A stretch of DNA of 64,000 bases, from positions 66,617,403 through 66,681,402 of the forward strand of contig OZ023266.1 of NCBI GenBank assembly GCA_964006375.1, in the 5' to 3' direction. The translations under genes were made by a program, and so were the position numbers. This DNA comes from Tillus elongatus. Taxonomy: Eukaryota; Arthropoda; Insecta; Coleoptera; Cleridae. The notes below the pieces were generated by a model. It did no database searches and was not told where the DNA came from. It saw nothing but the letters and a program-made list of their open reading frames with translations. This document shows positions 2,910 to 52,561 of this stretch, in pieces (positions within the stretch are counted from its first letter, which is position 1; each line of letters starts with the position of its first letter).

Positions 2910-3395
2910 CATTTTTTATCTTATTATAGTAAAACGTTTTTGATGTTCACAACACCTAATCAATATCCTGTATATGGATGAATCAATCAAACCATATAAC
3001 GGATGTACGCTGAAGTAGTTATTAAAGCAAGACAAAAATTGATAATGGCCCGTATCCGTTATGTCGCCGAATAGGTGTGTGTGGATTAAGTACTTCCATT
3101 GCAATGGAACAGTTATCAAACTAACTGCATCGCTCAAGTCCTGATTTACACTCAATCTTTCATCAGATGCGGCGCCAAACGAAGAGAATAATCTAGAAAT
3201 CTATATTAATCTAGAAAATTGTAATGGGTATTATATAATAGAGTCATGTCCACATTCCTTTCCTGGATACATGGCGACGTCTGTATGTTTTCTGGATGCT
3301 AGAAATTTAATGATGATTTGTACAGACACATTTGTTGACGCCAGTTATTGTATAAGTAAATGATATAAACGACACGATAACATAATAGTAAAAAC
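2910..3395. other. AT-rich DNA, nothing recognised
   Basis: No reading frame of note, no clear match to the repeat families of the window. Lies between the 3' end of one HETR and a HETR 3'-end fragment. Confidence 0.5.
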
Positions 3396-8258: not shown

Positions 8259-8446
8259 ACAGTAATCGTAAAGTGCCATGAAACTATAATTTTTGACAGT
8301 TCTCTAAATTCTACAATTTTGAAGTGCTTTGTAGGCGTCAAAAGAGTTTTCGTGCTATTCTTTAAATTTTGATACGGTGCAGTATTTTCGTTTTTAGTTA
8401 TTTGTTGATACTGAGCTGCTCATTAATATTATTTCCTCCTCTCAAG

Positions 8447-9526
8447 ATGGTTTTCATTAAGTACACTTCAGCGGATTTGACTGATATGTTGTTAATTTAT
8501 GGACAAACAAATCAAAATGCTAGACAAGCGGTGCGAGTTTATCAGGAAACTTATCCGCAAAGAAGAATTCCTGACAAAAATATTTTCCCACGTGTTGTAA
8601 GACATTTGAGAGAAACTGGTTCTTTAAAACCTTTAAAAGCTGACTCTGGACGCAGAAGATACCGCCGAACTGTACGAGTTGAAGAGGCAATATTAAATAG
8701 AGTTGAACGCGATCCTAGTACAAGTACGAGAATTATTGCCACCGAACTGGGTAATATTTCGGCATCATCAGTTCACAGAACTCTGAAGGATCAAAGTTTA
8801 TATCCCTATCATTTTACACGTGTCCAGGAACTTCTACCTAGAGACTTTCAACCAAGGGTAATGTTTTGTCAGTGGTTCTTAAACAAACTTAGGCACGACC
8901 AACATTTTTCTAAACGTGTACTATTTACTGATGAGGCGTCATTTACGCGAAAAGGTATCGTAAATTTTCACAATTTACATACATGGGCCGATGAAAACCC
9001 ACACTCTCTAAGAGTTGCAAATTCGCAGTATCAATTTTCCATCAATATTTGGGCTGCTATTATTGAAAATCACATAATTGGTCCTGTTGTTCTACCGAAT
9101 CGTCTTGACCATGAATCATATTTAAACTTTTTACAAAATGATTTGCCGTTGTTACTACCGCTTTTTATGAGAAATGGTACAATGTGGTTCCAGCATGATG
9201 GTGCGCCCGCACATTTTGCAGCAGTTGTAAGAACATATTTAGCCAACACATACGGTCACCGATGGATTGGTCGTGGAGGTCCGGTGTCATGGCCACCTCG
9301 ATCTCCGGACCTGAATCCTCTCGATTTTTATTTGTGGGGTCATTTAAAAGAAATAGTGTATAAAACACCAGTAAATACACGAGAAGAATTGTTGGGAAGA
9401 ATATAATATGCATTTGACAGCATTAGAGAAGATCAAAATATTTGCAGAAGAGTAAGAAGATCTTTGCGCAGAAGGTTAAATAATTGTAACGACGCTAATG
9501 GTGGTCACTTTCAACATTTTCTTTAG
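8447..9526 (+). pseudogene. IS630/Tc1/mariner-superfamily transposase, one in-frame stop
   Basis: The enzyme would cut and join transposon ends at TA sites. Start chosen at ATG 8447 (MVFIKYTSADLTDMLLIYGQ), which opens an N-terminal helix-turn-helix domain of the type found in many insect mariner-like proteins; a second helix-turn-helix (STSTRIIATELG) follows near residue 90. The catalytic triad is visible: D162 in VLFTDEASF, D251 in FQHDGAPAH, D288 in SPDLNPLDFYLWG. The spacing of the last two is 36 residues, giving DD36D. A TAA at 9404-9406 interrupts after residue 319, but the same frame stays open to TAG at 9524 and encodes a typical basic tail ending GGHFQHFL. So there is one disabling substitution in an otherwise full-length gene of about 359 codons. 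The stop removes only the tail, so residual function cannot be excluded. Confidence 0.88.
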
Positions 9527-10908: not shown

Positions 10909-10953
10909 TAAGAGTGTATAAGAAAGACTAGATGTATTCTCGCAACAATTAGA

Positions 10954-10996
10954 ACCGTAGACCGGTTTCGCTCTCATTAGAGCTCTTCAGTACGGC
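10954..10996 (-). ncRNA. Hammerhead ribozyme, unit 1
   Basis: Read on the minus strand: stem I GCCGTA, core CTGAAGA, stem II GCTCT-AATG-AGAGC, core GAAA, stem III half CCGGT (ACCGGT with the core A), C17 at 10960, stem I partner TACGGT. All conserved core positions (CUGANGA, GAAA, H17) are present. Stem III is too short for a hairpin but is self-complementary, as in Penelope and retrozyme hammerheads that act as dimers. Confidence 0.88.
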
Positions 10997-11261
10997 ATAC
11001 TAATTGTAGCAAAAATGCACCAAAAATAACACGGCTATGGTATAGCCAGTCTTAAAACACTAAGTGAGTGGTGAACGTGTCGCCACCTAGTTCGGAACCA
11101 AGTACTATGTTGTCACGCCCGCTCCAAATAACACAGAGTGTTAAAAATAGAGACAGTATACAACTAACTAACAATTTAAAAAAATTGTTAGCCTTGGCCC
11201 ATTTCTACCCCAATATAGGGACAAAGTATGTAAGACTAGATGCATTCTCGCAACAATTAGA

Positions 11262-11304
11262 ACCGTAGATCGGTTTCGCTCTCATTAGAGCTCTTCAGTA
11301 CGGC
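11262..11304 (-). ncRNA. Hammerhead ribozyme, unit 2
   Basis: Same motif as unit 1 except that stem III reads ACCGAT, making the triplet before the cut AUC instead of GUC and breaking one stem III pair. Confidence 0.82.
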
Positions 11305-11569
11305 ATACTAATTGTAGCAAAAATGCACCAAAAATAACACGGCTATGGTATAGCCAGTCTTAAAACACTAAGTGAGTGGTGAACGTGTCGCCACCTAGTT
11401 CGGAACCAAGTACTATGTTGTCACGCCCGCTCCAAATAACACAGAGTGTTAAAAATAGAGACAGTATACAACTAACTAACAATTTAAAAAAATTGTTAGC
11501 CTTGGCCCATTTCTACCCCAATATAGGGACAAAGTATGTAAGACTAGATGCATTCTCGCAACAATTAGA

Positions 11570-11612
11570 ACCGTAGATCGGTTTCGCTCTCATTAGAGCT
11601 CTTCAGTACGGC
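11570..11612 (-). ncRNA. Hammerhead ribozyme, unit 3
   Basis: Same as unit 2, with the ACCGAT form of stem III; all core bases intact. Confidence 0.82.
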
Positions 11613-11899
11613 ATACTAATTGTAGCAAAAATGCACCAAAAATAACACGGCTATGGTATAGCCAGTCTTAAAACACTAAGTGAGTGGTGAACGTGTCGCC
11701 ACTGAGTGGTGAACGTGTCGCCACCTAGTTCGGAACCAAGTACTATGTTGTCACGCCCGCTCCAAATAACACAGAGTGTTAAAAATAGAGACAGTATACA
11801 ACTAACTAACAATTTAGAAAAATTGATAGCCCTGGCCCATTTCTACCCCAATATAGGGACAAAGTATGTAAGACTAGATTAATTCTCGTAACAATTAGA

Positions 11900-11942
11900 A
11901 CCGTAGACCGGTTTCGCTCTCATTAGAGCTCTTCAGTACGGC
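11900..11942 (-). ncRNA. Hammerhead ribozyme, unit 4
   Basis: Same as unit 1, with the self-complementary ACCGGT form of stem III. It lies 330 bp from unit 3 because of the 22-bp duplication. Confidence 0.88.
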
Positions 11943-12207
11943 ATACTAATTGTAGCAAAAATGCACCAAAAATAACACGGCTATGGTATAGCCAGTCTTA
12001 AAACACTAAGTGAGTGGTGAACGTGTCGCCACCTAGTTCGGAACCAAGTACTATGTTGTCAAGCCCGCTCCAAATAACACAGAATGTTAAAAATAGAGAC
12101 AGTATACAACTAACTAACAATTTAAAAAAATTGTTAGCCCTGGCCCATTTCTACCCCAATATAGGGACAAAGTATGTAAGACTAGATGCATTCTCGCAAC
12201 AATTAGA

Positions 12208-12250
12208 ACCGTAGATCGGTTTCGCTCTCATTAGAGCTCTTCAGTACGGC
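12208..12250 (-). ncRNA. Hammerhead ribozyme, unit 5
   Basis: Core intact; ACCGAT form of stem III. Confidence 0.82.
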
Positions 12251-12341
12251 ATACTAATTGTAGAAAAAATGCACCAAAAATAACACGGCTATGGTATAGC
12301 CAGTCTTAAAACACTAAGTGAGTGGTGAACGTGTCGCCACC

Positions 12342-12473
12342 AATTTTTTTAAATTGTTAGTTAGTTGTATACTGTCTCTATTTTTAACACTCTGTGTTAT
12401 TTGGAGCGGGCGTGACAACATAGTACTTGGTTCCGAACTAGGTGGCGACACGTTCACCACTCACTTAGTGTTT
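12342..12473 (+). repeat. Inverted partial retrozyme unit
   Basis: Reverse complement of the unit segment from AAAACACTAAGTGAG to AATTTAAAAAAATT. With the adjacent direct unit it forms an imperfect palindrome around 12341/12342. It contains no ribozyme. On the minus strand it is the 5' end of the insertion, the position where twin priming leaves inversions. Confidence 0.85.
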
Positions 12474-12487
12474 TAAGAGTGTATAAG

Positions 12488-12939: not shown

Positions 12940-13034
12940 ACAAGGAGAAAGGTTAAGGGCAAGGCCGCAGGGAGACAACCGCATACACCTGTATGCGGTT
13001 ATCTCCCTGCGGCCTTGCCCTTAACCTTTCTTCT

Positions 13035-13037
<3 letters not shown>
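12940..13037. repeat. Near-perfect 98-bp palindrome
   Basis: Arms of about 48 bp around a 2-bp centre at 12988-12989. The inner arms (AAGGCCGCAGGGAGA to GCATACA) match their partner with a single mismatch near ACAACC/GGTTAT. It is GC-rich, in contrast to the TA tracts on both sides, and could extrude as a cruciform or form an RNA hairpin. Not a terminator context. Confidence 0.92.
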
Positions 13038-19571: not shown

Positions 19572-21610
19572 GTCAACCCCAAACATTTTGACGTTTAGGA
19601 ACAACAATATTGAGTCAGATAATGGGGTAGTTAAATTGTCGATCGAATAAGTTGTCTTTTTGTGTGTTTGTAATGAGGATATAATGGGTTTCCATGTAGT
19701 CGAAAGGCGAAGATCAGCATCTCTCTTATTTAAACAATCTGGACGTTTTTAGATCTCTAGACTGCTTCACGGTGAATTCTGGTTTTGAAGTTGTAAACTG
19801 GGGCTATTGTTTTGGCATTGTCCAAGTCTATCTTGGGTCCTGTATGAATATGATGCATGGCCAATGCGGATGTTCTAACTGCGAATGTGTGTGCATATAT
19901 TGAGTGCCTCGGTGGTTCAGTGGTTCTCCTTTCACGTTTTCAGTACATAGTGTAACATTAACATCAACCGAGTTTCTGGCATTGTATTTGAGTAAGTTGA
20001 ATGTCTGCACGTTCTTTCCTTCGCAGGAGGCGTAAATCCATCAGTCCCGTGTACATGCGATGTTGGGCACGTAAAAGATCCTTACCCTTACAGAAAGGCT
20101 GGGGTTAGGTAAGATTTCCAGGATAGTGAGTGGGAACTGCTCCCTGGTGTTGTTGCTTGTGCGTAGTCGCGGAAATAGACCGACATTAAAGCAAAAAATA
20201 TATATTCTATTGTGGATAGGTCTATTCGTTTGTCCTACATAGGTTTAGAAGCAGTCGAGACAAGGAATTTTTCGGATTCGTATCCTTGGAAGTTTTTATT
20301 AGGTTTGGCAGTTTTTGCTCTGTTGTGAATATGGGTTTGATATCATGGGTTCTAAAAATTCGGCTGATTTTGTCGGTGACATCTTTACTGTATGGTGAGA
20401 AGGCTTTGTGATGTTGCGAGGATTTTGTCTGTTTTTGTTGTGGTGTAGTGGCTGGTTGTTGTGCGTTTCTAATGTTTCGTAGTTTGTAATTTTTGTCGTA
20501 CCCGTTTTCTAGCAATGTCTGCCTTAAAAAGTTTATTTCTGTTTGTCTACTGTTGTCGTGTGTTAATCTAAAAGATCGTGTTACCAGTGTTTGAATCACG
20601 GAATTAGTTGCGATGGGTGATGGTGAGACTGGGCGTTAATGTAACGATTAGTGTGGGTTGGTTTTCGGTACACAGTGCAAGAAAATCCTGTGTCATAGTT
20701 TTTAGTGGTGCGTACATATGAGAAAGGCGGAGAAAAATTATTTCCTATTCCCGTGGTGAACAGTATTTGGGGGTCGACGATATTTAGGCAAGAAAGGAAT
20801 TTAACGTGTGGCCAGTCAGCGAAAATATCGTCAAAGTATCTTAACCAGCAGGTTGGTTTTATTTAGGATGAATTGAGAGCTTACGTGTCGAAATTTTCCA
20901 TGAAAATGTTATCCAGTGCAGGAGAGGGTGATGGTTCATCCATTGGAGCACCATGAGCTTGTTTGTAAAATTTGTTTAGGAAAAGGAATTAAGTGTTAGA
21001 TGTGCTATGTTTTAGAAGGGCTATGGTACCGTGTAGAATATTGGGTTTATTTTTGAGAATGTCAAGAGTATGTTAGTATACAAGCAAACAATATCGAAGA
21101 TAACTAGGATGTCGTTTTGAGAAATGGTGCTGTTTTGAATAAAATCAATAAATGGGTGGAGTTTTTGACAGAAGATGTAGCTTTCTCTATTAATGTAGAG
21201 TTTTGGCCAGACGTTTTGCAAGTTTTTTGTGTGGCTGAACAGTGGGCGCTCATGAAGCGGAATATCAAGCTTATAGATCTTCCGGAGACTGCATTTTCTA
21301 GGGACCCGAGACGATTCTTCGACTAGTTCTTTTTTTATGTCAGGGCTGAGTTGGAAGCCGCTGGTGATTGTTTTAGTTGTCTTCTGAAGGTAACTTTTAG
21401 GATCTTTAGAAATTTATTTATAGTCTCTGCTATTAGTAAATTGTCTAAATTTTGTATTTATTCTGTTTTGTCGAGTATATGACTGTAGCGTTGCCTGTCT
21501 GCTGGTAGAATTACAATTTCTGTGTTTCGGTTGAGATCTCAGATTGATTGTCGTTCGTGATCGTTTAAATCTTAAAGATGTCCTCTCCTACAGATACTCC
21601 TAAGCCTGTT
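19572..21610 (-). pseudogene. Penelope-like retroelement, RT and GIY-YIG endonuclease (broken)
   Basis: Minus strand. Penelope-like elements encode a reverse transcriptase joined to a GIY-YIG nuclease and copy RNA into the chromosome. Order seen from the right: KDPKSYLQKTTKTITSGFQL and SPDIKKELVE (about 21420-21330), FIDFIQNSTISQNDILV leading to FDIVCLYTN (RT motif A, near 21100), a GAPMD block near 20950, WLRYFDDIFADW (RT motif C, near 20840, FDD for the usual VDD), the connector with RSFRLTHDNSRQTEINFLR, TYVGQTNRS (GIY-YIG core, near 20235), and the nuclease tail REAVEI then LRLSTTWKPII near 19690. At least four frame changes and several stops: dead. Hammerhead-like motifs lie on both flanks. 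Confidence 0.85.
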
Positions 21611-21688: not shown

Positions 21689-22608
<920 letters not shown>

Positions 22609-28847: not shown

Positions 28848-31352
<2,505 letters not shown>

Positions 31353-36540: not shown

Positions 36541-36950
36541 TTGACTGGTTATACAGAGTCTATATTCTCTATGTGTAACATTTTATTTTTATTAGAGCTT
36601 TTGAGACAGTACGTAGTTACGCACAGAGATGACGATTTTGTCGCACATCTCACAAAGTTCTCTGACGCTCTGAGGGTACTGTTATCCGAATTAATTTTTG
36701 TTTTGATTGTCATTAGTATAGTACCTTGACGAGCTCTAATGTGAGAGGAACTGGGATCTGTTTCTAATGATAGTCAAAATGCATCTAGCCTTACATAAGT
36801 TGTTTTATGCATTAGGGAAGAAAGTATCAGTGCTGTATACAGTATTTATATGTTTAACATTTTGTCTTAATTAGAGCTGTTGGGCTAACATAGTACCTAC
36901 TTACGATTTGAGATGGCGATTCTGTCGATTCCTGTTCTCTGAAGCTGGCC
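36541..36950 (+). repeat. Dispersed retrozyme relic, about 1.4 units
   Basis: Plus-strand homologue of the 308-bp unit. Two starts of the TATACAG...TATTT...TTAACATTTT block at 36552 and 36838 give a period near 286. Between them lies a decayed hammerhead, TTGACGA-GCTCT-AATGTG-AGAGG (about 36726-36750), followed by ATGCATCTAGCCTTACATA, which matches the array unit. GAGATGGCGATTCTGTCG follows in the second unit. Confidence 0.7.
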
Positions 36951-39810: not shown

Positions 39811-40046
39811 CAGTAAGAGAATGTGGTAGTGACTTGAAGAAGCAGTGTAAAGTGTTAAGAGAGTAGCTACTGTAGTACCAGTGTAGATACTTGTGTGCAG
39901 ATTAGTAATTGTAGACAGTAAATTAAGTGTTTTGTGAGAGAGACATTCTAGAAATTTTATTGTATCCATATTTAGAATGTAAATAAAGTTGTTTTGTTAA
40001 AATTAAAAGTCTCACTTATCCAGAACCCGGAGAAAACGTAACAATT

Positions 40047-40064
40047 TGGTGTCAGAAGTGGGAT
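40047..40064 (+). other. Primer-binding site, plus orientation, at the RT junction
   Basis: TGGTGTCAGAAGTGGGAT: exactly 18 nt from TGG to the point where the sequence becomes antisense RT. 18 nt is the length copied from a tRNA primer before its modified A58. The primer tRNA was not identified. Confidence 0.7.
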
Positions 40065-43053
40065 TGAGTTGCAGATTGGCACCTCTCAGCCTGGAGAAAA
40101 CTTGCTTCAGATTCGACAGGTGTTCATCGAAAGTCCTTCCAATCACCATGACATCGTCAAGATACACCAGGCATGTTTCCCATGTAAGTCCTCTCAGCAC
40201 TAACTCCATTAGTCGTTCGAAGGTGGCAGGAGCATTACACAGGCCGAATGGCATGACCTTGAATTGGTACAACCCATTCCCGGTTGAAAAAGCAGTCTTC
40301 TCCTTATCCTCTTTATGGAGTTCTACTTGCCAGTAACCACTTTTCAGGTCTAATGTAGAGAACCACTTTGATCCGGCCAAAGTGTTCAAAGTGTCGTCGA
40401 TCCGGGGCAGGGGATAACTGTCTTTCTTGGTGACATCATTCAGCTTCCTATAGTCCACGCAAAATCTCATAGTGCCGTCTTTCTTGGTGACCAAAACTAC
40501 TGGGGACGACCAAGGACTATTAGACTCCTCGATCACACCATCTTCCAGCATTTCGTTAACCATCGCCTTGATTTCTGATTGCTTGGCAAAAGGCAGTCTT
40601 CTCGGCGGCTGTCTAATTGGTCTTGCGTCGCCAGTATTAATCCTGTGTTGCACTAGACTCGTACGACCTGTGATTTTATCTTGAGCGAAAATATCGGCCT
40701 CCTCCAATACGAACTTCAGGGCCATCTCCATCTCCATATTGTTCAATTGGCCCCATGAATTCTTGAACCGCTCTACTATTTCTACTGGCAGTCTTCTGTC
40801 TAATGCAGTGGGTGTCACGTTTTTGGACAACGTCACTCGGTCAATGGGTTCGCAAGTGGCGATAACTTCACCTCTCTTCAATGTGACCCTGTTAGTTTGT
40901 ACGTTAGCCACTCTTATGGGTATTGTCCTCTTAGGGTTTACTAAGCATCGTGCGACGAGGGCACCATCATGCCTATCTTTTAGGGGCTCCGCTATGAGAG
41001 CAGACATACCATCAAGTTTCTTCTCTAGCCTGGCTCTGACAATCTTCTCACTGTTACCAGGAATCCGTGTATCTTCGTCGACAATAAGTCTCACCCTGGG
41101 ATTAGCTTCGCCTGCTGTTGGAGATAAATACAACTCTTCGTTACCGATTTTCAAGATCTTATTCTGGAAGTCTACTGATAGGACATCGAAATCTTCCATT
41201 AAATCCAGGCCCAGAATAAATTCGTCGACGATTTCTGCGACGACAGCCCTTACCTGTAGCTCAGTACTGCCCAGCCTAATGTAAACAGTGGCCTCTCCAT
41301 GCACGGGTATTCTATCCCCTTTTGCCGTCTCCAATACAGGCTGTTTGTTGGTAGTGAGTGCCGACTTGTTTGGCAACATGTCTGGGCGTACAACGGATCT
41401 AGTGGCGCCAGTATCGATGGTGAAACCGCATTGTCTCCCGTCTATGCTACCAGGTATAACGAGGCTCTCGTGGTAGCGTCGGATAGTGGAGACCCTGACT
41501 TTGGGGCCTTGGGTCCCGCATGCCACGTGTCGCCCACCTACACTGGCGTCAGGTCGTTTTCCCTGATGGCGCTCACTGTTGGTATATTCTTGTCTTCTGC
41601 GAGCCACCTGTTGGGTTTGTGAGCACTGCCTACTTATGTGCCCTTTCCTACCACACTTGTAGCATTCTATGTCTGACCAATCTGCTTTCGTCCTACGTGC
41701 CCCAACCGGTGCAGTGAGCTTGCTTATGGCTTCTTTTAACAACTTCATTTCTTGCCTTAGTTCCGCTGTTGTGTCTGCAAAGTCCTCTATCTCCTTCACT
41801 TCGCGCAGCCTGTTGCGGCGAGGTTGAGATGCATTCTTCGCTGCTTCAAATTCCAAGCCATAAATTACGCAGTCTGTAAGTGTTTTGAACCTTCCGAGCC
41901 TTAAAGCTTGTTGCATTTCATTGTCAAGTACCCCATCGATGAAGGTCTGGACGGTGATCTGGTTGACAAATTCTTCTGGGGCTTGGGGATATGCCAGTCG
42001 CACAATTTTCTCCACTTCGGCACTAAATTCTTGCAGCGTCTCATTTGGCTTTTGGACCCTTGACTTTAGTTGTGTCTGGTAGACCTGGCTCATGTACTTG
42101 TTACCATATCTCAAATCTAGGGCCTGTATCACTGTTAAGTAGTTTTGCTGTTTCGACTCCGGGGTGTTCTGGAGGATTTCTAGGGCTTTACCTCGAAGCG
42201 AGAGAATTAGAGCAGTTGCTGCCTGTTGTTCGCTCCACCCATTGCTGAGAGCTGCCGCCTCAAACTGCCTCCTGTACATGGGCCACGATGTTTCTCCGTC
42301 AAAAGTCGGCGGCTTCAAGGTTCCATGAGGCTGCTGCACGATTGGCATATCTTCTTCCGGCCGATTTTGAACTGGGGACATTCCAGTAACTCCTCTTGGA
42401 TGAGTTCTGTCAGTCTGGCCCATCACCTGCTCTGTCAGTTCTCTATGTCTGACTTCTGTGCCTTCCATCATCATCTTCATTTGTTCTTTCAACCCCTCCA
42501 CTTCTTCCCATCGTTTGTTCAAATCCTCTGTTACATTTTCTACTTTCCTGTTTACCACTCCTATTGTATTTTCCACATCTTCTACTTTCTTGTCCACATT
42601 TTCTACTTTCTTGTCCACATTTTCTATTTGTTCGTTGATCTGTTCTATTTCTTCTTTTACACCAACTCTCATATTGTGGAACATACTTCGGAGGTCTTCT
42701 CTGTCTTCTTCGCGTTGCTTCTTGAGTTCTTCTTTATCTTCAAGACGCCTCTGTTCCTCCTCTTGTCGTCTTCTCTCGTCTTCTTCGCGCCGTCTTCTTT
42801 CTTCTTCTTGTCGCCGTTGTTCGTCTTCTTTGCGTCGTCTTCTTTCATCTTCTTGTCGCCGTTGTTCGTCTTCTTCGCGTTGCCTCTTGAGGTCTTCTTT
42901 ATCTTCTTGTCGCCGTCGTTCGTCTTCTTCGCGCCGTCTTCTTTCTTCTTCTTGTCGTCGTTGTTCGTCTTCTTCGCGTTGCTTTTTCAGTAAGTCCATC
43001 AACTCTTTGATTTCAGCCATCTTGTCGTAGTCAGTCGATCTGGTGTTTACCAT
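40065..43053 (-). pseudogene. gag-pol: Ty3/gypsy Gag-Pol polyprotein, truncated in the RT
   Basis: One open frame of about 996 element codons from ATG at 43053 with no break, fused at its end to antisense primer-binding-site and LTR sequence (the frame closes at 40012). Residues 10-190 are a highly charged RRQEEERRRREED-type coiled coil, unusual in its length. Gag capsid follows (LKPPTFDGETSWPMYRRQFE, about 245-420). The zinc knuckle CYKCGRKGHISRQC is near residue 465. The protease has FTIDTGATRSVV near 545. RT spans about 780-990 with VDYRKLN, LDLKSGYWQVEL, MPFGLCNAPATFERLM and catalytic YLDD near 963. It stops after LQLNP, before the thumb; RNase H is absent. Gag and Pol share one frame here. 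The protein would assemble particles and copy RNA, but cannot in this truncated state. Confidence 0.92.
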
Positions 43054-43092
43054 TTACAGCTAGCTTGCTTGTTCACTTCTTCACTCACTTAT

Positions 43093-43110
43093 CCCACACT
43101 TCTGACACCA
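43093..43110 (-). other. Primer-binding site, minus orientation
   Basis: Reads TGGTGTCAGAAGTGTGGG on the minus strand, 3 nt after the LTR end. It differs from the plus-strand site by an extra TG near its 3' side. Confidence 0.7.
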
Positions 43111-43113
43111 AAT

Positions 43114-43854
43114 TGTTACGTTTTCTCCGGGTTCTGGATAAGTGAGACTTTAAATCTTAACAAAACAACTTTATTTACATTCTAAATATGGATACAATAA
43201 AATTTCTAGAATGTCTCTCTCACAAAACACTTAATTTACTGTCTACAATTACTAATCTGCACACAAGTATCTACACTGGTACTACAGTAGCTACTCTCTT
43301 AACACTTTACACTGCTTCTTCAAGTCACTACCACATTCTCTTACTGAACTGAACTCGGACTGGCTTGCTTTCGCTTTTATATACTCGCCGTACCTTCCCC
43401 TCCTTTCTAGAGCGTTCCATTCCAGAACGTTCCAGAACCTTCTTTTACTAGAAGGTTCTGTGACTACAGATCGGTCCCGTGTGTATACAGGGGGATGTAT
43501 ATACAGGATGATCCAAATGTGGTCACCACTCCTATGTTACACAAGAGGTGTTTCTCGAACTATAAGATCTCTCTGCGTATACAGGGTGTAAGGGTTTCTC
43601 TGCGTATACAGGGTGTATATACAGGGTGTTCGGAATGTGCAGACCTCAGTTATCCGTTCCGACGGGGTACAAGTTGGTAACTTCGTTATTTCTGGTCCTA
43701 GAGGGTTGAGACTTCGCCTGTGGGGGGTCACCCCAGACACCCCCAGGGGGGTGGGGAGGCGGTGTTGCCAGATTGTGCAAAAATTCCCAGATGTTGGGGA
43801 AATTCTGGAGATGTGGCAACACCGCACCTACGTCTATTGAAGTGCTTTGTAACA
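43114..43854 (-). repeat. LTR, minus orientation
   Basis: 741 bp, inverted copy of 39303-40043; the only differences noticed are two substitutions in the U5 region near 43155. Contains the mirrored TATA box, and the heat-shock element at 43420-43442. It serves as upstream LTR for gag and as downstream LTR for integrase. Confidence 0.92.
43420..43442 (-). promoter_or_regulatory. Five-unit heat-shock element in the second LTR
   Basis: TTC-CA-GAA-CG-TTC-CA-GAA-CC-TTC on the plus strand, the exact mirror of the element at 39714. Confidence 0.85.
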
Positions 43855-43866
43855 CTGCCCCCCTCC
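43855..43866 (-). other. Polypurine tract
   Basis: GGAGGGGGGCAG read on the minus strand, between the integrase stop and the LTR; primes plus-strand DNA synthesis in LTR retroelements. Confidence 0.8.
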
Positions 43867-46922
<3,056 letters not shown>

Positions 46923-46984
46923 GAACTTTTTATTAGTTGATTGATGAATAAATTTTGATTTGATTTGATATGTTTTGATTATCA

Positions 46985-47215
46985 TAAGTGTAGCTGACGA
47001 GCTCTAATGAGGGCGAAACGAGTATGTTTTCAAAGGTTGATTAAAAATGCCCCAACCCTTACACACTTTATGCCCTATATTTGCAAACGAAGTAACAGAA
47101 CCGACGATTTATGGTTGTGCACAGTCTTCTCAGAGTGTTTGAGACTACATGGTACTTAGCTACCACCGAGATGGCAAATCTGTCGGACATCTTACAATGT
47201 TCTCAGGGCAACATA
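46985..47215 (+). repeat. Dispersed retrozyme relic with hammerhead core
   Basis: Plus strand: CTGACGA (46994-47000), GCTCT-AATG-AGGGC, GAAA (47015-47018), ACGAGT, A17. Stem I does not pair. AAAAATGCCCCAACCCTTAC, ACACTTTATGCCC and the GAGATGGCAAATCTGTCGGA block follow in the same order as in the 308-bp unit. Confidence 0.72.
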
Positions 47216-49129
47216 CGTTATTACAATCTTGTTCCGGTAATATTGCAGCTCGGAGACGTAAATGACGAACCCGCCCTCACAAGGAAAAAGGTACCTTGGC
47301 CAGTTTTCACAGATCATCTTAAAAACGCCCTTGGTAATATTCTGGTTATCCGCAGCATCCCCGAACTCGAGGGTACAGTGGATAATCTACAGTCCAAAAT
47401 TCAATGTTCTATCGAACATGCATCAAGGACGTACCTCGCCCCGAGCAATCTGCCGGCATTTCCGTCCAGTATCAAAGAAATGATACTCGAAAAGAACAGC
47501 GTGCGTAGACTAGCTCAACGCACCGGAAACCCCACCGACGAACGAAACGCAAACAGACTCATCAAACAAGTACGATCCGCCTTACCAGAACTCGGCAACA
47601 ATCGTTGGGAGGAGCGCCTGTAAACCCTGTCTACCCAAGACAATTCCATCTTCGCACCCAAAAACTTCCGATATCCCCACTTCACGGCCGTAACGGTGTC
47701 GCATGCACAGATGCGGAGAAAGCTACTGCATTCGCAGATCATCTGGAGTTGCAATTCCACCCAAATTATAACAACGTTGATCTGTCGCACGTAGCAAGAA
47801 CGCACCGCTATGTCAGGAATACGCTTCGCGCCACCCCAGACACAACTATCGAGCCCACAACTTTCGAAGAAATTTCCCAAATAACTAAATCATTAAAAAA
47901 TAGGAAAGCTCGGGGGACGATGGAATCTCCAACGTAGCCCTGAAAAACCTCCCCCACAAAGCCGTGGTATTCCTAGTTACGATTATGAATGCCATGCTGC
48001 GACTTCAACACGTTCCTTCCATGTGAAAACTAGCCGATATTATCAACATCCCGAAACCCAGTAAAGATCCGCTGTTCCCCCAAAACTACAGGCCCATTAG
48101 CCTACTGGCAGTCATCCGCAAAATCGCCGAAAAACTGATTCAGAAAAGGCTAGCTTCATTCACCTCAGATAATCATATCTTCCCGGACGAGCAATTCGGC
48201 TTCAGACACCAGCACTCCACCACTGACCAAGTTTTTCGTGTGGTGGAAAACATCACCGAAGGATTTAATAAAAACAAGTCAACTGGTGCAATATTTCTTA
48301 ACATTGCTCAAGCCTTCGATAAGGTTAGACATGCGGGCCTCCTAAATAAACTTGTATCATTTAATTATCCTCTCTCTCTCTGATTCTGCTAATCAGGTTA
48401 TACCTGCAACAGAGGAAGTACCAACCGTCTAATTCCCTGGCAAGATTCCGCCAAATACCTCGGGGTTTTCCTCGACAAACACTTAACATGGCGCCCCCAT
48501 TACAAACATGCCCGACGAAAAGCCTCGCTGTTCATCTCGAAGCTGTTCCCGCTTCTAAATAGAAATTCCAAATTGTCCATCAACAATAAATTGCTCATCT
48601 ACAAAGTCGTCATCCGGCCAGCCTTGACCTATGCAACCCCTGCATGGGCCACCGCGGCCGCAACACACATCAAGACCCTTCAAATCATCAAGAATAAAAT
48701 TCTGAGAATGGTTACTGGAGCGCCATGGTTTGTCAGAAACAGTCATATTCAATCTGATCTGGAAATGCCTTCGATACTTGAGTTTATAACTCAACTATCC
48801 ACAACTCAGTTCGCTAAAGCCGCTTCTCACCCAAATGCTCTTCTCCGTAGTGCCACCGACTACGATGAACAACTTCTACATAAGCATAAGCGACCAAAGC
48901 TTAAACTTACCCGCTAACGCCCCCGCGGCAAAATCAGAATGGAAACATTTAACCCCAAAAGTCATTGTGTGTATTCTTTCCGACGGAGGTATGGACTAAG
49001 GTCCGGTACTCCTACGGAGGGAGTTTTAGTGAGTAGGTGTACTAAGAGTACGAGTCTCACAGTACCTCGATATCCCACGGCACTACGGTGTCCTGAATGA
49101 GGTGTGCATGAGGCATATCTCCCTCCTGT

Positions 49130-51939: not shown

Positions 51940-52180
51940 CTAAAATTTAGCGCTTTTGGTCGCAAACTTTGTCCCGGTAGTAGGAAAGAAATGGTCCAAG
52001 GCTGAAAATTTACAGAATTGATGGTTGGTTGTACCACAGCATAATTTGATTATGCTGTAGTTGTACACTGTACATAGCTCTGTTTATAAAATTTTGTGTA
52101 AACTAGAACTGCCCTGACAACATACTACCTGGTCCTGCACCGAGATGGCGTCCCTGTCCTATCTCTCACAATGTTTTCCT
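51940..52180 (+). repeat. Dispersed retrozyme relic without ribozyme
   Basis: AAACTTTGTCCCGGTAGTAG, GAAATGGTCCAAGGCTGA, TGTACACTGTACATAGCTCT and GACAACATACTACC match the 308-bp unit in order. The hammerhead should lie just left of it but is not recognisable. Confidence 0.65.
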
Positions 52181-52561
52181 GTCTGATATCCATTGTTTAG
52201 ATTTTTATCTACAATTTATTTAAATAGCATAGCAGTACAGATAACGTCATCTGTCTTTGTCCAACATTGTAGATATTGCATTACAGAATCTGAAGTGATG
52301 TCGAGGATTATTTTATTATTAACTTCAAATAACTTTATTTTCCTTTAATCAAACGACTTGAAAATTGGTACACAACCACGTCTGTCTATGTTCTTTTAAG
52401 TTGTAAATTTTCGTTTCAATCACTTAGACAATTTGAGAGATATTGCGTTTTAAAAAATATGTTTAAATTTTTTATTAAGAAAAATTGGCCGTTAAGATTT
52501 GATTAATGCACTCATTCAAGCTATTAGCAAAGTAAGGGTAATTCCTAAATTTGGTCCAAAT

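Follow-up and report, generated by a model that had tools for sequence, protein, structure and literature searches.

Two proposals have been made on how animal retrozymes move: that Penelope-like elements (PLEs), which are strong candidates, serve as helpers, and that the template is likely to be a circular RNA (PMC7229834; PMC11722881, in the available text of each). A tandem array of hammerhead-bearing units in the beetle Tillus elongatus raises this question at a single locus: what was copied there, and by which machinery? The window analysed is a stretch of 64,000 nucleotides of contig OZ023266.1. A preliminary description of it had reported a 308-bp tandem array at 10923..12473 with five hammerhead self-cleaving ribozymes on the minus strand, and had likened the array both to animal retrozymes and to hammerhead satellites. 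The best explanation, which we hold to be probable as a whole, is that an animal retrozyme, both non-coding and non-autonomous, was inserted here once: each of the two target strands primed its copying, at one of two fixed sites of the RNA, and the machinery was probably that of a PLE.

The coordinates of the features are collected in Table 1, with unit positions (u) counted so that u1 is the base following C17, which keeps the phase of the mapping independent of the search query. The tandem repetition was confirmed by TRF (period 308, 4.5 copies), but the reported extent holds only in part: the direct array occupies 10924-12341, and what follows from 12342, up to about 12478, is part of a unit that runs the other way. 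The element is thus bounded, with two arms lying head to head between direct repeats. The 3' end of the A-arm, on the left, falls at u36, termed site A, with one additional A at 10923, and the 3' end of the B-arm, on the right, falls at site B, where the final 5-8 nt overlap the target-site duplication. The B-arm is 98-99% complementary to most array units, and the 330-bp length of one unit is due to a duplication of 22 bp that is perfect. The 14-bp repeat occurs only twice in the window, even when one mismatch is allowed; in a chance control of 20,000 pairs of 21-mers 1.55 kb apart, with TA/TG runs excluded, the longest string in common was 12. Low-score Rfam matches to MIR821 and MIR6140 were rejected as the array paired with its inverted arm.

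Table 1. Positions of the retrozyme insertion, its hammerheads and related copies in the window.
Feature	Position	Strand	Remarks
Left target-site duplication TAAGAGTGTATAAG	10909..10922	+	14-bp direct repeat
A-arm, ~4.5 tandem units of 308 bp (one 330 bp)	10924..12341	- (RNA sense)	
Hammerhead 1	10954..10996	-	C17 at 10960; stem III ACCGGU
Hammerhead 2	11262..11304	-	C17 at 11268; stem III ACCGAU
Hammerhead 3	11570..11612	-	C17 at 11576; stem III ACCGAU
22-bp tandem duplication in 330-bp unit	11681..11724	-	at self-complementary hairpin
Hammerhead 4	11900..11942	-	C17 at 11906; stem III ACCGGU
Hammerhead 5	12208..12250	-	C17 at 12214; stem III ACCGAU
B-arm, partial unit u81-u221	12342..12481	+	opposite orientation
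Right target-site duplication TAAGAGTGTATAAG	12474..12487	+	14-bp direct repeat
Degenerate old copy	36541..36940	+	nhmmer E 5.9e-10 and 2.5e-6; hammerhead core decayed
Degenerate old copy	46974..47198	+	nhmmer E 8.6e-4; hammerhead-like core at 46994-47018
Degenerate old copy	51962..52197	+	nhmmer E 6.2e-17; hammerhead segment outside match

The unit of 308 nt has a GC content of 0.399 and is without a long reading frame, the longest stop-free stretch being 66 codons in a trimer. No reverse transcriptase (RT) plus GIY-YIG frame was found in it, so the unit itself is not a PLE. The window contains three further, degenerate copies (in the one at 46974..47198, a second stretch, 47133-47177, reaches just E 0.58 with nhmmer), indicating a dispersed family with a young member at 10924-12481.

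The five hammerheads were borne out, each of the units having the type I core, stem II, U16.1, C at H17 and a paired stem I, and the cleavage position given earlier as an example (10960) is correct. On the minus strand the order is GCCGTA-CTGAAGA-GCTCT(AATG)AGAGC-GAAA-CCG(G/A)T-C-TACGGT. N7 is A in all five units, which the hammerhead consensus permits. Stem I extends past its six pairs: beyond a small internal loop it carries on as a long helix. This internal loop and the AAUG loop II are both present in the motif, as the elements of a possible loop 1-loop 2 tertiary contact. Stem III is short throughout, as had been described, but it is not identical among the units: it consists of 1 bp closed by the loop CCGG in two of the five and CCGA in the other three. 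In a covariance-model search, no Rfam match was obtained at gathering thresholds, and RF02275 (Hammerhead_HH9) reached 21.9-25.4 bits against a cut-off of 52 (E 0.0015-0.02 in a 1.8-kb search).

The pattern CTGANGA-N14-GAAA occurs seven times in the window, five times in the array units on the minus strand and also at 8928, within a transposase frame, and at 46994, in an old copy; the mean in shuffled sequence was 0.14 and the largest count 1. A strict descriptor (at least five of six stem I pairs, stem II of at least 3 bp, GAAA, U16.1 and H17 not G) matched exactly the five units in the window, and 60 windows simulated with an order-1 Markov model gave one match in total. Among 137 units from the sampled genome insertions and the window, CTGANGA is kept in 127, the core, stem II and GAAA together are exact in 113, and stem III reads ACCGGTC in 126 and ACCGATC in 11. 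The distal part of stem I, compared by means of hand-anchored arms, retains 17/17 pairs in the old copy at 36.7 kb (four double changes, none broken, P 0.005) and 12/17 in the old copy at 47 kb (five broken, P 0.054). No match to the hammerhead core was found in viral and prokaryotic collections, which may exclude the window's own genome. At the level of sequence, a retrozyme-like 308-nt repeat with a predicted type I hammerhead in its units is supported, and self-cleavage is predicted.

The activity of a single motif may nevertheless be weak, given the 1-bp stem III and a competing fold in the free-folding model. In the ACCGGU unit the core ACUG pairs with the stem III CGGU, with -36.6 kcal/mol compared with -33.4 kcal/mol when the core is open, and in the ACCGAU unit the values are -40.4 and -40.1 kcal/mol. 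The competing pairing is therefore favoured by 3.2 kcal/mol in the former and by 0.3 kcal/mol in the latter, in a model of secondary structure alone.

The genome (1.72 Gb, 30 contigs) was searched with the 308-bp unit, which gave 1764 first-look candidates, 40 of them scored. Apart from the window itself, all distinct places among these 40 were fetched, in 36 loci (L009-L044) picked by similarity and not by layout. Together with the window they hold 38 insertions, or 36 after removal of the mirror copies L013 (of L012) and L020 (of L019); copies or HSPs below 90% (in L009, L026, L035 and L039) were excluded. The 36 non-duplicate insertions span nine contigs, indicating a dispersed, multi-copy family.

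Two head-to-head arms are present in 23 of the 36 insertions, and all 23 have one outer 3' end at A and the other at B. The A ends have their maximal extent at u36-52 and the B ends at u207-221, except for u188 in L025; two 5' outer ends occur in none of the 36. If each arm were free to end at A or B, 23 mixed pairs out of 23 would have a probability of about 1.2e-7. The flanks of the two-armed insertions share 8-15 bp (31 in L035, within a TA repeat), compared with 4-7 in 479 of 506 mismatched flank pairs and 8 or more in 15 of them. The other 13 insertions, with which L037 was counted (its far end, and perhaps a second arm, lies beyond the fetched stretch), end at A in ten cases, at B in two and elsewhere in one (L031, u255), and their shared flank strings are 10 or 12 in two of the 13 and 3-5 in the remainder. 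A further two-armed insertion with A and B ends and an 11-bp repeat was found by chance beside a PLE (L053). Termination by Pol III at the TTTT beside site B was rejected as the cause of the B end, as site A is without such a run; T runs elsewhere in the unit are not usual ends, and just one of the 59 outer 3' ends (L031, u255) adjoins one.

This recurring layout bears directly on the comparison with satellites, which turned out to miss the mark: with its defined boundaries, its target-site duplication and a second arm in inverse orientation, the array is an insertion, and the same arrangement recurs in the genome. Ordinary satellite DNA grown by unequal crossing-over, with the hammerhead as a bystander, would agree with a tandem array and with a family at many places (1764 first-look candidates, 40 scored), but the examined arrays are short and have fixed ends, mostly with an opposite arm and a flank duplication. 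Satellite expansion was rejected because of the flank duplications and the fixed ends, and we regard it as extremely improbable.

The inner ends of the arms are scattered and slightly non-uniform (KS p = 0.029). A snap-back, in which the first cDNA copies itself, would also give inverted junctions, and self-priming has been proposed for rotifer Penelope elements (PMC3846280, available text). It is very unlikely here, since most insertions have arms with different inner ends (u133/u177 and u10/u121, for example; they are equal in L022) and the far end of the second arm lies at B and not anywhere.

It is also unlikely, though less so, that the RNA was moved by a retrotransposon of the LINE type, with an APE endonuclease, and that the inverted arm is the product of ordinary twin priming. 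Twin priming in LINEs uses a variable internal site, whereas two fixed start sites are used here, one of each in 23/23, and the lengths of the arms, with medians of 502 (A) and 480 (B), show no significant difference (Wilcoxon p = 0.80). Neither poly(A) nor any other tail was found at the junctions inspected, and the resident PLE has the same head-to-head layout as the retrozyme. The flank duplications of 8-15 bp, the inversion at the 5' side of the element and the short overlaps at junctions would nevertheless be expected from twin priming, which is described as giving this outline (PMC2837659, available text).

All 59 outer 3' ends are more than 15 nt away from the ribozyme cut site. The template must therefore have crossed the cut site either uncut or religated, and a cleaved linear monomer was rejected as the template. 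Mean unit divergence is 0.013 within an arm, 0.017 between the arms of an insertion and 0.029 between insertions (with the mirror copies L013 and L020 included). Variants off the consensus that are common to both arms number 1.70 per insertion (39 sites), compared with 0.31 for mismatched arms, and 105 sites are off the consensus in one arm only. The low divergence from arm to arm and the shared off-consensus variants favour one RNA, or closely related RNAs, for each insertion, with later mutation.

A circular template is not proved by the divergence and the shared variants. The variable sites within insertions number 145, of which 121 are singletons and 24 occur in two or more units; in the window array, u74 and stem III vary between units in all four combinations; and in L018, L023, L040 and L042 the arms differ by 0.040-0.067, above the mean between insertions. 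These four-combination sites, shared variable sites and divergent arms, and also the 105 sites off the consensus in one arm only, are unexplained by a single circular template. The first three would fit a linear multimer that was read off an existing array and left uncut, with a hammerhead that has no role in transposition, as would the crossing of the cut site by all outer ends and the normal insertion in vitro of hammerhead mutants of the anole PLE (PMC11167929). We nevertheless consider a linear multimer rather unlikely. The divergence within arms is just 0.003-0.007 in several insertions (L035, L036, L026 and L037), against 0.029 between insertions, and the sequence of hammerhead core, stem II and GAAA is unchanged in 113/137 units. 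A monomer bottleneck fits better, because copying a heterogeneous array cannot yield an array more uniform than its source.

A monomer passing through a circle is also in keeping with the predicted RNA structure. The predicted circular fold has -102.9 kcal/mol (z -6.3) in the sense orientation compared with -70.6 kcal/mol (z -3.65) in antisense, so the stronger fold is that of the ribozyme-bearing strand. Pairing of u31-37 with u214-220 is predicted with P 0.7-0.9, and u39-43 pair with u207-211 in the best fold, so that the predicted rod formed by the circular RNA would bring sites A and B opposite each other. This placement is a single coincidence, for which the chance is a few per cent, roughly 4% by our own estimate. 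In a diverged copy that is 86.5% identical over aligned columns, 74 of 105 pairs are unchanged, nine are lost to gaps, and ten one-sided and three double changes are compensatory (P 0.024). Nine of the 105 pairs are broken, compared with 18.7 expected under random substitution, and as few were seen in 0/2000 trials. Within the A:B helix of this copy, u33-u218 shows a double compensatory change and u37-u214 is broken.

PLEs are present in the same genome, and one has left remains in the window (20222-21413, minus strand). Pfam, PDB and protein searches with this remnant gave no match worth naming, and its PLE identity follows from its match, within its own genome, to copies whose 921-codon frames are intact. 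Of 7690 candidate relatives of the C-terminal piece, 150 were scored; these are mostly 68-74% identical, and their frames are open for up to 947 codons, often 921. One frame of the 921-codon family gave 58.4 bits with RVT_1 and 19.9 bits with GIY-YIG, the latter below the cut-off of 22.6, and relatives of it were found in many animals, Anolis carolinensis (43% identity) among them. A resident gypsy integrase has its best named relatives in a moth and in spiders, in keeping with an arthropod host. Among the 150 scored hits, PLE neighbours within 8 kb are head to head in 22 cases, tandem in five and tail to tail in none, a count that covers the whole list of 150; four of the five tandem pairs are spaced by 3063-3064 bp. 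Five PLE loci were fetched for being pairs, and L056 for being tandem.

The head-to-head and tandem layout of the resident PLE, together with the precedents in other PLEs (PMC3846280, in its available text, and PMC11167929), makes PLE machinery the candidate for mobilisation. The family examined here may not be the mobiliser itself, as both outer ends run into (TA)n in the five pairs fetched, as against 1/23 of the retrozyme insertions, and a comparison of a tandem PLE copy with the retrozyme unit gave no convincing sequence similarity (best E 0.42). The helper may be another PLE family. Apparent links between unit and PLE were rejected: the one in L053 is a separate retrozyme insertion, the one in L050 is an 85-bp stretch (3052-3135) that matches the unit at 75%, is separated from the PLE match by about 1.2 kb and was read as an old copy, and a hammerhead-like CTGATGA...GAAA within PLE copies lies inside the reading frame and has an unpaired stem II.

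A cycle consistent with these observations can be proposed. The type I hammerhead would cleave transcripts of tandem units at C17, with dimeric motifs as the probable active form in view of the 1-bp stem III, and the resulting monomers would be ligated into rod-shaped circles of 308 nt. A reverse transcriptase with an endonuclease, most likely from a PLE, would then make a staggered cut in the target, and both target 3' ends would prime copying of the RNA, one strand at A (about u36-41) and the other at B (about u207-214). Extension of each primer would cover anything between a fraction of a turn and many turns. Wherever the cDNA arms happen to stop, they would be joined to each other, and repair would leave the short target duplication. 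Self-cleavage, circularisation, the PLE identity of the machinery and one RNA per insertion are the steps that we infer. A more specific version, which we put forward tentatively and hold to be possible rather than probable, is that a PLE reverse transcriptase acts as a dimer and holds the rod at the point where A faces B, the two protomers working simultaneously, each priming from one DNA strand of the cut chromosome and running round the viroid-like 308-nt circle until the cDNAs join. It would be the structure of the RNA, and not homology to the target, that fixes both start sites. If true, target-primed reverse transcription would have a further, distinct mode, one that produces tandem inverted arrays in a single step.

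Animal retrozymes are already known, and what we class as new is the insertion signature, consisting of head-to-head arms with A and B ends. No description of head-to-head retrozyme insertions with two start sites was found in the literature searched, which lay mostly outside subscription papers. The signature bears on the helper and template proposals, and both become testable because an A end, a B end, head-to-head arms and a short duplication recur: if the proposals hold, A and B must be the start sites of the enzyme, and every insertion should trace to a single circle. It also explains how one event, without satellite expansion, can give rise to a hammerhead array, and it could guide the search for retrozyme insertions in further genomes.

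Among known systems, the cave-cricket pDo500 (PMC2837043) and the schistosome W elements (PMC8490949) are also hammerhead repeats of an insect and a worm. Unlike the insertion studied here, both are described as satellite DNA in the available text of these papers, with a possible target-site duplication mentioned for one W element (PMC8490949). The amphibian hammerheads of newt and axolotl (HHR_Amex1) have a 1-bp stem III with a palindromic tetraloop, and they are reported to cut poorly alone and best as dimers (PMC7229834, available text). The present hammerhead resembles them in its 1-bp stem III and palindromic tetraloop (A-CCGG-U), and differs in host, in sequence and in the non-palindromic CCGA loop of 11/137 units. 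The dimeric form of the amphibian motifs is the nearer parallel for this hammerhead.

The metazoan non-LTR retrozymes of Cervera and de la Pena (2020, PMC7229834) are described, in the available text, as tandem, non-coding repeats of low GC content with a type I hammerhead in each monomer of 170-400 nt, target-site duplications of more than 4 bp and PLEs in the same genome. The element studied here agrees with them in its tandem 308-nt unit with one type I hammerhead, its GC content of 40% (below 45%), its lack of coding capacity, the coexisting PLEs and the highly self-paired predicted circle. It also agrees in a target-site duplication of more than 4 bp, which is 14 bp here and is found in 23/23 two-armed insertions, with none in most of the 13 others. 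Unlike those retrozymes, which the main text of PMC7229834 presents as tandem repeats without mention of head-to-head arms or fixed end pairs, both features are the rule among the insertions sampled here.

The closest likeness in layout is to PLEs, in which minimal type I hammerheads have been reported (PMC3846280, available text; PMC11167929). Rotifer Penelope elements show direct repeats with a shorter inverted copy at the 5' side, head to head, a tail on one outer end, and a target-site duplication of 8-10 bp in several cases and none in others (PMC3846280, available text); with the anole PLE, both strands are cut and then extended, copying being started at internal sites of the RNA (PMC11167929). 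Unlike PLEs, the 308-bp unit encodes no protein. Within the unit, about 170 nt separate the two outer ends, unlike those of the rotifer PLE with its 31-bp tail (PMC3846280, available text), and the separate A and B sites contrast with the anole PLE, in which start sites showed no difference between the strands (PMC11167929). What the retrozyme insertions have in common with PLEs, as described in the accessible parts of these reports (PMC3846280, PMC11167929), is the combination of tandem copies, an inverted arm and a target-site duplication.

Relatives of the decayed Penelope-like element (PLE) in the window were abundant in the same genome, and many retained intact 921-codon frames; the identity of its C-terminal piece to the same-genome copies was mostly 68-74% (150 scored of 7690 candidates). 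Copies of the abundant PLE family were arranged head-to-head (L051-L055, chosen as pairs) or as a 3063-bp tandem (L056, chosen as tandem), and (TA)n was reached by both arms in all five fetched pairs, as if TA microsatellites were the target of this family.

In the window, a long (TA)n tract adjoins each array of a 141-bp tandem repeat, and a (TA)n-flanked palindrome looks, from its sequence, like a foldback element. The LINE frames, which we take to be jockey-like, gave no match in a Pfam search.

Transposable elements, repeats and hammerhead-like cores (window coordinates unless a locus is named)
Feature	Position	Strand or orientation	Remarks
Mariner-like transposase	8366-9406	+	346-codon stop-free frame; DUF4817 match, and DDE_3 match just sub-threshold
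Near-perfect palindrome, ~95 bp	12940-13037		between two (TA)n tracts; inspection
Decayed PLE	20222-21413	-	C-terminal piece matches same-genome copies
141-bp tandem repeat, first array	21855-22288	opposite to second	tandem-repeat report and inspection
141-bp tandem repeat, second array	29107-29541	opposite to first	tandem-repeat report and inspection
Ty3/gypsy-type retrotransposon	40012-45225	-	long gag-pol and integrase frames
Decayed LINE reading frames	47096-48917	+	immediately 3' of old retrozyme copy
Minimal hammerhead-like core	L051:209	+	GAAACGATCGT(C/A) next
Minimal hammerhead-like core	L051:6127	-	GAAACGATCGT(C/A) next
Minimal hammerhead-like core	L046:3035	-	GAAACGATCGT(C/A) next

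Mirror-image duplicates of the same retrozyme insertion were found twice, each time on one contig (L012/L013 on C8; L019/L020 on C1); each pair is either an artefact of assembly or a genomic segment duplicated in inverted orientation.

A separate repeat with minimal hammerhead-like cores was observed at loci L051 and L046, where the following GAAACGATCGT(C/A) is predicted to form a palindromic stem III; a palindromic stem III of this type is a trait of PLE-associated hammerheads.
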